A stretch of DNA of 64,000 bases, from NCBI GenBank assembly GCA_024404025.1, contig JAKSQP010000014.1:1-64000 (forward strand), in the 5' to 3' direction. The notes beneath the pieces were generated by a model that was not told the origin of the DNA, searched no databases, and worked only from the letters and a program-made list of their open reading frames with translations. This document shows, in pieces, positions 47,193 through 58,667 of the stretch. Each line of letters opens with the position of its first letter. Within the stretch, counting starts at the first letter, position 1. The position numbers and the translations under genes are program-made. This stretch comes from Clostridia bacterium (GTDB taxonomy: Bacteria > Bacillota > Clostridia > Oscillospirales > Acutalibacteraceae).

Positions 47193-47200
47193 CGAAAACA

Positions 47201-47296
47201 CCTTATCTTTCGGCAAAATGCCGCAGGAATTAGCACCTTGTTTAACACAGGTTGCCGGGCTTCAAAGGGCCTGTCCCTCAGCCTCTCTCAATAAGG
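47201..47296 (-). promoter_or_regulatory. SAM-I riboswitch (S-box) upstream of metK
   Basis: The minus-strand RNA has the SAM-I landmarks in order: CTTATTGAGAGAGG at the 5' side of P1, GAGGGACAGGCCC, GAAGCCCGGCAACC, GGTGCTAATTCC and AAGATAAGG closing P1. The P1 strands (CTTAT and ATAAG) are complementary. An intrinsic terminator follows, so SAM binding should switch metK off. Confidence 0.95.
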
Positions 47297-47316
47297 ACAT
47301 ATTCTATTGACACTTT

Positions 47317-57649: not shown

Positions 57650-57654
57650 AAGCA

Positions 57655-57699
57655 GAGGCCGGCGCATCCGTTGCCGTGATGCGTCGGTCTCATTTTTTT
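57655..57699 (+). terminator. Terminator of polA-ywlE-rimI-tsaD
   Basis: GAGGCCGGCGCATC (57655-57668) and GATGCGTCGGTCTC (57678-57691) form a 14-bp stem with two G-U pairs and a 9-base loop, followed by a run of seven Ts. Confidence 0.92.
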
Positions 57700-57736
57700 C
57701 TGTTTCCGATGAGCAAAGCCCTTTCGGATATATAAA

Positions 57737-57773
57737 CCGTTCAACGAACGGATTCTGACAGGCAGAAGTGCCT
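57737..57773 (-). terminator. Paired hairpins after the 42-codon gene, probable terminator
   Basis: On the minus strand an AGGCA/TGCCT hairpin (57760-57773) directly follows the small gene's stop, then CCGTTC/GAACGG (57737-57751) followed by TTTATAT. The second could terminate transcription, though its T-run is imperfect. Confidence 0.5.
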
Positions 57774-57776
57774 TTC

Positions 57777-57905
57777 TCAACCACGGAGAAGAGCATCAAG
57801 CTCAAAGATTTTGAAAAGCTTTCTGATTGTCATGAACTTCTTCTCACTTTCGATTTCATCGATGAGTTCAAGTTCCTTTGCGTAGATAAGCTCTGAATCG
57901 TTCAT
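57777..57905 (-). CDS. unrecognised 42-residue small protein
   Basis: A very short gene encoding 42 residues, charged and probably all-helical: it begins NDSELIYAKELELIDEIESE, continues with KKFMTIRKLFKIFELDALLRG and has no membrane helix or cysteine. Support for a real gene is the full set of signals: a near-consensus promoter, AAGGA 8 bases before ATG 57905, and hairpins after the stop. An in-frame ATG at 57914 is possible. I do not recognise a family; a Spo0E-like or other small regulatory protein is a thought only. The 532-base stretch 57650-58181 holds only this gene, the tsaD terminator and the repeats listed separately. Confidence 0.6.
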   Translation of the reverse strand: MNDSELIYAKELELIDEIESEKKFMTIRKLFKIFELDALLRG

Positions 57906-57936
57906 TTCATTCATCCTTTCTTTCTTTGATGTCTTT

Positions 57937-57964
57937 ATTATACTCACTTTTCCAAGAAAGTCAA
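57937..57964 (-). promoter_or_regulatory. Promoter of the 42-codon gene
   Basis: On the minus strand TTGACT (57959-57964) and TATAAT (57937-57942) are 16 bases apart, placing the start of transcription near 57930 and the start codon about 25 bases further on. Confidence 0.78.
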
Positions 57965-57971
57965 GTCATTA

Positions 57972-58088
57972 TGCACAAATGATAATGCGCTTATTTATGC
58001 ACAATGCACAAATATTAAACAACATCAAATTATAACAGGACAATAAAAAACGGAAAAGGCATTCAGAATATTGTGTGCATATTGCACA
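57972..58088. repeat. Cluster of TGCACA/TGTGCA elements
   Basis: TGCACA occurs at 57972-57977, 57998-58003 and 58005-58010, each as ATGCACAA, and a perfect palindrome TGTGCA-TAT-TGCACA lies at 58074-58088. The first copy is 8 bases upstream of the -35 box of the 42-codon gene. Five copies of a 6-mer in 117 bases suggest a regulator-binding region. The regulator is unknown. Confidence 0.65.
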
Positions 58089-58181
58089 ATTGATTTTGCC
58101 GATAATTGTAGAATGTGAACAACGCTTTAACAATCAGGTCGGATTGCGGAAAATAAATTTGTGAAACTTTTTTCGGAAATA

Positions 58182-58610
58182 TTAAAGATACGGGCGCATA
58201 TCCTTGCCGAGTGCTTCTTCAAGCTCGCTGATATTTCTGGCAATATCCTTTGTTGTCTGCTCTGCGCCGACATATTTATTTATATATTTATGCAGGGATT
58301 TTATCCCCATATCGCAGCCGTCTGTTACAAGGCTTGCCGCCTGCGCAGAGGTCGGGTTTATCGAAAGCTCTGCATTGATTTTCATCCAGGACATTGTTTT
58401 TGCCATCGGATTTGGCTCTTTATCATCGCTTCCGGAGTTTTCAAGCCGCTTATCAACATCAATTTCAAGCTTTTTATGCTCTGCCTTGCTGTTTGAAAGA
58501 ATCTGCTGAAACTTTTCATCTTTGACATATGGCATAATTTCGTCAATTGAATCAACCGCAGTTTTGATTCCTGCGGAGCATTCACGCAATAATTTCTGAT
58601 CATCATTCAT
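58182..58610 (-). CDS. unrecognised helical protein
   Basis: A 142-residue protein, almost entirely predicted alpha-helical, with no signal peptide or membrane helix. It opens NDDQKLLRECSAGIKTAVDS and contains KTMSWMKINAELSINPTSAQ; the pattern of four long amphipathic helices recalls ferritin-like or DUF2383-type bundles, but the usual metal ligands are not evident. ATG 58610 follows GAGGTG by about 6 bases. No clear terminator follows it, and the TGTGCA palindrome lies about 95 bases past its stop. Confidence 0.75.
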   Translation of the reverse strand: MNDDQKLLRECSAGIKTAVDSIDEIMPYVKDEKFQQILSNSKAEHKKLEIDVDKRLENSGSDDKEPNPMAKTMSWMKINAELSINPTSAQAASLVTDGCDMGIKSLHKYINKYVGAEQTTKDIARNISELEEALGKDMRPYL

Positions 58611-58667
58611 ATAAAACACCTCGGAAATATTATTGCATTTTTCTCCGTCGATATACTTTTTCCCGCA

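Follow-up and report, generated by a model that had tools for sequence, protein, structure and literature searches.

Between tsaD and the gene for a 145-aa protein, the window (the whole 64,000 nt stretch of DNA analysed) contains a complete small transcription unit on the minus strand, made up of an ORF with a promoter, an operator and hairpins (Table 1). A reading made earlier from the letters alone, referred to below as the sequence-only reading, had described a complete mini gene here, with a strong promoter, a ribosome site, 42 codons and hairpins; all these parts were found at the locus, and the promoter, TTGACT-16-TATAAT, matches the consensus at 11 of 12 positions. The ORF is preceded by the ribosome site AAAGGA, and its ATG, at 57905, comes after AAAGGATGA. 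Read from another in-frame ATG, at 57914, the ORF would have 45 codons. We favour the 42-codon start because, in four relatives (L068, L069, L075 and L088), the ATG matching 57914 runs straight into a TAA (GGATGAATGTAAATGAAT). The resulting ATG TAA ATG is a minimal start-stop pair placed directly before the real start codon, and is perhaps an element of translational control. The layout is best explained by a monocistronic gene, transcribed from a strong predicted sigma-A promoter. A plasmid search with the region gave no match.

Table 1. Features of the small-protein locus and its borders, in window coordinates
Feature	Position	Strand	Remarks
tsaD	ends 57649		convergent with the small-protein gene
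Long hairpin	57655..57691	.	likely terminator common to the small-protein gene and tsaD; read from the sequence, absent from the hairpin scan list
Two-hairpin RNA element in the 3′-UTR	57706..57751	-	UUNNNAUA linker; covariation analysis
Small-protein gene	57777..57905	-	42 codons + stop; MNDSELIYAKELELIDEIESEKKFMTIRKLFKIFELDALLRG
Sigma-A-type promoter	57937..57964	-	conserved in relatives
Proximal operator half-site TTGTGCA	57972..57978	-	7 nt before the -35 region; position conserved in relatives
Distal operator palindrome TTGTGCATTGTGCATAA	57995..58011	-	one mismatch from TTGTGCANNNTGCACAA; 30 nt before the -35 region
Second upstream palindrome	58073..58089	.	core TGTGCATATTGCACA perfect; one mismatch in 17
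145-aa gene	58182-58619	-	same strand as the small-protein gene

Peptide BLAST detected the gene in 21 of 99 genomes, that of the window included. A profile built from 41 members found one copy each in 39 of the 45 genomes of the genus (14 of the 15 of good quality), bearing out the conservation in relatives that had been put forward as a check on the gene. Within the family, a smaller profile detected the gene in 26 of 250 genomes, which represent 15 of 135 genera. A profile search of a sample of the order found it in 9 of 394 genomes, all belonging to the same family; one further order-wide match was rejected, as it sits inside a 454-aa frame. The pattern TGTGCA-N6-8-TTGAC-N16-19-TATAAT was present in 38 of the 45 genus genomes, while a reversed control pattern was present in none. 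It matched 42 times; 39 matches were examined, of which 37 lead into an ORF of the small-protein family and two (L259 and L260) do not. The small-protein gene can be found by the architecture of its promoter where protein BLAST fails. Order-wide matches to the promoter pattern (36 of 295 genomes), the loci of which were not viewed singly, were taken to be mostly due to chance. The named relatives are assemblies of Clostridia, among them Ruminococcaceae bacterium UBA1730 and two that come from deer and goat colon. Gene neighbourhoods differ among relatives, as befits an autonomous gene.

The ratio of non-synonymous to synonymous change (dN/dS) was calculated for 63 pairs whose identity exceeded about 70%; 12 of them were saturated at synonymous sites, leaving 51. 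All but one of these gave values from 0.03 to 0.64, mostly 0.05 to 0.5, the exception being the pair L083/L086, with 1.13 from few changes. The value for the window and its nearest relative was 0.64, again from few changes. Synonymous change far exceeds non-synonymous change in most close pairs, a comparison that the sequence-only reading had suggested. These data point clearly to the ORF being a real single-copy gene under protein-level selection.

Upstream of the promoter lie three copies of ATGCACAA (TTGTGCAT on the minus strand), at 57971-57978, 57997-58004 and 58004-58011, together with a perfect TGTGCA-TAT-TGCACA at 58074-58088, just as had been reported earlier. The clustering of the 6-mer goes beyond chance: counting both strands, TGTGCA/TGCACA occurs five times in 57650-58181, against 0.35 expected, and none of 5000 dinucleotide shuffles reached as many. 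Nowhere else in the window is the 6-mer so densely packed; outside this cluster, no 120-bp stretch has more than one copy. Since the number of TTGTGCAT copies over the whole window is ordinary (4 against 2.3 expected), it is the clustering that is unusual. Further, TGTGCA-N3-TGCACA with at most one mismatch occurs twice in the window, against 0.10 expected, and none of 100 shuffles had two. The scan for such palindromes that had been suggested found exactly two 17-bp palindromes at one mismatch or fewer in the genome of the window, both upstream of the small-protein gene. The one at 58073..58089 has a clear counterpart at its position in no relative but the nearest (G025).

The 6-mers are conserved at set distances from the -35 region, another point on which the earlier proposal could have failed. 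In relatives, a TTGTGCA is found 7 nt before the -35 region, and a TGCACAA 24 nt further up; TGCACA-N18-TGTGCA is present in 32 of the 45 genus genomes, while a control was present in none. Across 50 aligned loci, which include the two chance promoter matches L259 and L260, the distal site is a 17-bp palindrome, TTGTGCA-N3-TGCACAA, with the left half exact in 22 loci and the right half in 29. In other genera, the proximal half-site is, in our reading, kept at 18 of 24 loci of the family. A pattern made of TTGTGCAT-N3-TGCACAA with three mismatches allowed had the wrong spacing and was uninformative. The TGTGCA copies form a predicted operator.

Sites of CRP-type activators are centred at about -41.5, -61.5 and -71.5, and the operator centres estimated here from the spacings, near -42, -63 and -75, give a similar geometry. 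The CRP site is TGTGA-N6-TCACA, whereas the operator described here is a palindrome of odd length with TTGTGCA halves. In Sinorhizobium (PMC12542648), the PhaR/AniA motif has half-sites identical to those found here, TTGTGCA and TGCACAA, and two copies of it flank the -35 region of phasin promoters. The phaP1 site, TTGTGCACTGCACAA, nevertheless has its halves 2 bp closer together (N1, against N3 here; PMC12542648), and Sinorhizobium belongs to a different phylum. The core spacing of the PhaR/AniA regulon palindrome, YGCRNYGCR, was not found at the locus, where the conserved spacing is TTGTGCA-N3-TGCACAA. A full-text search of the literature returned no account of the operator or the small-protein gene among the matches listed.

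In 15 of the 45 genus genomes, the same palindrome is present exactly 19 nt upstream of another promoter. When any spacing between 10 and 39 nt was allowed in the scan, 23 small-protein loci had 30 nt and 15 other loci had 19 nt, with 29, 33 and 38 nt seen once each; many of these loci had been picked for having the palindrome, regardless of spacing. Most of the 19-nt loci precede, in our reading, the gene for a secreted G5/3D cell-wall protein (at L118, L128 and L244 the gene was not checked), and the domains G5, 3D and DUF348 were confirmed in two of the targets. In the genome of the window, the genome-wide palindrome scan at one mismatch or fewer found no second target. The sequence-only reading had proposed a control dedicated to the small protein. 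This holds for the window's own genome, where the only near-perfect palindromes lie at this locus, but not for the 15 relatives in which the palindrome also precedes the second promoter.

Other palindrome sites, with at most one mismatch or as exact 24-nt pairs, lie in many cases inside genes and look like chance matches. In three genomes, palindromes of the form TGGTGCA-N3-TGCACAA (L122, L129 and L237) precede alaS; these we suspect to be part of a T-box leader. TGCACAA/TTGTGCA pairs or near-palindromes were also seen in the gap between a malic-enzyme-like gene and the gene for a secreted protein, at L062 (G000:C13:41617), L037 (G025) and L242 (G031); being absent from the geometry scan and off both main spacings, they were not counted as targets. 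The secreted protein that follows the malic-enzyme-like gene in G025 has Listeria-Bacteroides repeats. At L254 (G017:C20) and L255 (G027:C64), which represent two species, an exact TGCACA-N18-TGTGCA separates the gene for a short secreted-looking protein from a divergent gene starting VLKLKKIGFDNAAY.

The distances of 30 nt and 19 nt differ by one turn of the helix, and would therefore fit an activator working from one helix face. Our best guess is that a dimeric regulator acting at the operator would be an activator, repression being possible. If the regulator were a repressor, its occupancy of the half-site would block the -35 region, with help from the palindrome three turns away, and a signal would free the strong promoter. 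The half-site lies 7 nt before TTGACT/TTGACA in a promoter close to consensus, and a half-site that overlaps such a -35 region would fit repression just as well. At the second promoter, however, the palindrome lies 19 nt from the -35 region and does not overlap it, and both distances are fixed one helical turn apart, which repression does not require. We regard a repressor as a serious, if less favoured, possibility.

At 29 of the 34 genus loci, two hairpins flanking an invariant UUNNNAUA linker come after the stop codon. The other five lack the element: the linker is missing from L073, L074 and L080, and the hairpins from L072 and L064. As MAFFT alignments (A3-A5) misplaced the stems, the hairpins were set by hand, and in L068, L069 and L076 a longer hairpin set automatically was exchanged for a shorter one. 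The covariation test was made with 27 of the 29 sequences first counted (L079 and L089 were left out), and all 14 pairs showed changes on both sides. Paired cells amounted to 88.9%, against 65.8% in shuffled alignments (0 of 500 as high) and at most 44.7% in slid registers, two controls that address the leaning of a hand-set alignment towards structure. No Rfam family reached its gathering score at the element in the window, and a search of seven loci at E values up to 5 gave only hits far below gathering scores. A covariance model run on the 45 genomes with stricter filters gave its stronger matches at the small-protein locus and weak ones elsewhere; at small-protein loci in other genera the element was not detected, nor was it at the five genus loci mentioned above. 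The window's own element scored 18 bits, at the weaker end of the range.

Protection of the mRNA end is one possible role of the element; another is a function of its own. In the latter case the transcript could be chiefly a regulatory or dual-function RNA, its element acting on other RNAs or binding a protein, with the small protein as a second product. The two-sided changes at every pair, the excess of pairing over shuffles, the invariant linker and the position of the stronger covariance-model matches all speak for this. Against it, promoter and protein persist where the element is missing, that is, at the five genus loci and in other genera, and selection at the protein level is clear; simple protection of the mRNA 3′-end would also account for the element. 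Either kind of transcript seems unlikely to us.

Scans of the window protein against Pfam and NCBIfam revealed no family match. When 24 members were compared with Pfam, NCBIfam and PHROGs, and 41 with Pfam, the hits were scattered and weak, and none was common to more than three members; sequence searches of the PDB returned nothing relevant. Members share roughly the pattern E-x2-L-[IL]-x-E-I-x3-K-x-F-[ST]-[FW]-K-[KR]-[LF]-x-K-[IV]-x-E-L-x-x-L-L. AlphaFold2, run with four sequences, predicted a two-helix hairpin (helices 6-23 and 30-44; mean pLDDT 87.6, pTM 0.62), to which structure matches were weak; hairpins of two helices are so common that no function can be assigned from this shape. Being short, with amphipathic helices and an autonomous gene in varied neighbourhoods, the product could be thought of as secreted or membrane-active, e.g. 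a leaderless bacteriocin, the precursor of a signal peptide or a toxin. Inspection by eye nevertheless revealed no signal sequence or membrane span in the members viewed and no recurrent export or immunity gene alongside; in addition, almost all genomes of the genus have exactly one copy, which is not typical of bacteriocins. Such a product is improbable.

Two known families of small proteins invite comparison. Sda, the 46-aa inhibitor of the sporulation kinase of Bacillus subtilis (PDB 1pv0, 3fyr), is of similar length, matches the predicted helical hairpin, and has its own heavily regulated promoter in a Firmicute. Comparison of the 41 members with Pfam at E values up to 10 gave no Sda hit, and hhalign gave a probability of 0.26 against a comparison profile of two Sda sequences, a weak test. 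Sda was not among the Foldseek and structure matches of the hairpin model, which excludes nothing. The Spo0E-like aspartyl-phosphate phosphatases (PDB 2c0s, 2bzb) likewise form a two-helix hairpin. Structure 2c0s could be aligned with 41 residues of the model, with an rmsd of 1.5 A and a Z of 4.8, a weak match (Foldseek E 10). Helix 2 of the window protein ends in ELD-x-LL, reminiscent of the ELD within the SQELD of the phosphatases, a motif taken from the PDB alignments. The Asp, however, is present in the window protein, whereas relatives mostly have N, Q, E or another residue at its position, and the Ser is missing; there was no Pfam match, and the hhalign probability with a two-sequence comparison profile, again a weak test, was 1.1. 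Despite the similar size and shape, membership of either family is not supported.

In the 255 nt upstream of the operator at 37 genus loci, TTTGTTGAA was found 48 times at one mismatch or fewer, in 27 loci, against 10 in shuffled sequences; TTTGTCGAA, under the same limit, was found 18 times, in 15 loci, against 4.9. Such sites resemble Spo0A boxes. They exceed the shuffled counts roughly four- to five-fold, which would fit developmental control of the gene and proves nothing. In the same regions, TTATCCACA, the DnaA box, was not enriched (4 hits against 3.0 in shuffles). The relaxed DnaA box consensus is TTWTNCACA, and two TTATGCACA in the window region fit it, overlapping the operator. The promoter of sda has DnaA sites (PMC7430163). 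An Sda-like checkpoint protein under DnaA control, for which the TGCACA sites would be DnaA boxes and the protein's size and helical hairpin would speak, is the least credible of the readings, given that the conserved operator here, unlike that of Sda, is a 17-bp palindrome, that DnaA boxes are not enriched upstream, that no Sda match was found in Pfam among the 41 members, and that the dnaA locus held no box cluster for comparison.

The reading we prefer, with moderate confidence, is that of a two-helix protein of 42 residues, expressed from a strong sigma-A promoter under a dimeric activator that binds the palindrome and the half-site. The regulator would bind TTGTGCA-N3-TGCACAA, centred about 75 bp upstream of the transcription start, would also occupy the half-site touching the -35 region, and, as a putative activator, would contact RNA polymerase from one face of the helix. 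The small protein would then dock on another protein, probably a component of signalling or surface remodelling, because the second target encodes a secreted G5/3D protein and Spo0A-box-like sites are enriched upstream. Taken further, this would make it a dual-function gene of gut Clostridia, encoding a helical-hairpin regulator together with its own RNA module, under a palindrome-binding activator that also drives the G5/3D protein, and might link changes at the cell surface to a decision in development; we offer this extension as speculative and rather doubtful.

Proteins this small are routinely missed by annotation, and the view of the sequence-only reading, of an overlooked small-protein gene under tightly conserved control, is borne out by our results; the gene has probably been missed. 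Almost all species in a gut genus carry a member of the protein family, and others are scattered through the taxonomic family, with a very regular operator and a covarying RNA. What is new here is the protein family, together with the operator and the RNA element; searches of the libraries gave no match to any of the three. Gene, operator and folded RNA tail together suggest a regulatory protein that has escaped study. They offer a directly testable entry to a new regulator and its regulon in a group whose named relatives are known from metagenome assemblies.

Two further observations were made. At G555:C166:1853-2150 (L171 and L186), the small-protein gene is present twice in tandem, the second copy without an operator of its own. 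Elsewhere in the window, a SAM riboswitch (RF00162) was detected at 47200-47297 on the minus strand, with 85.4 bits.
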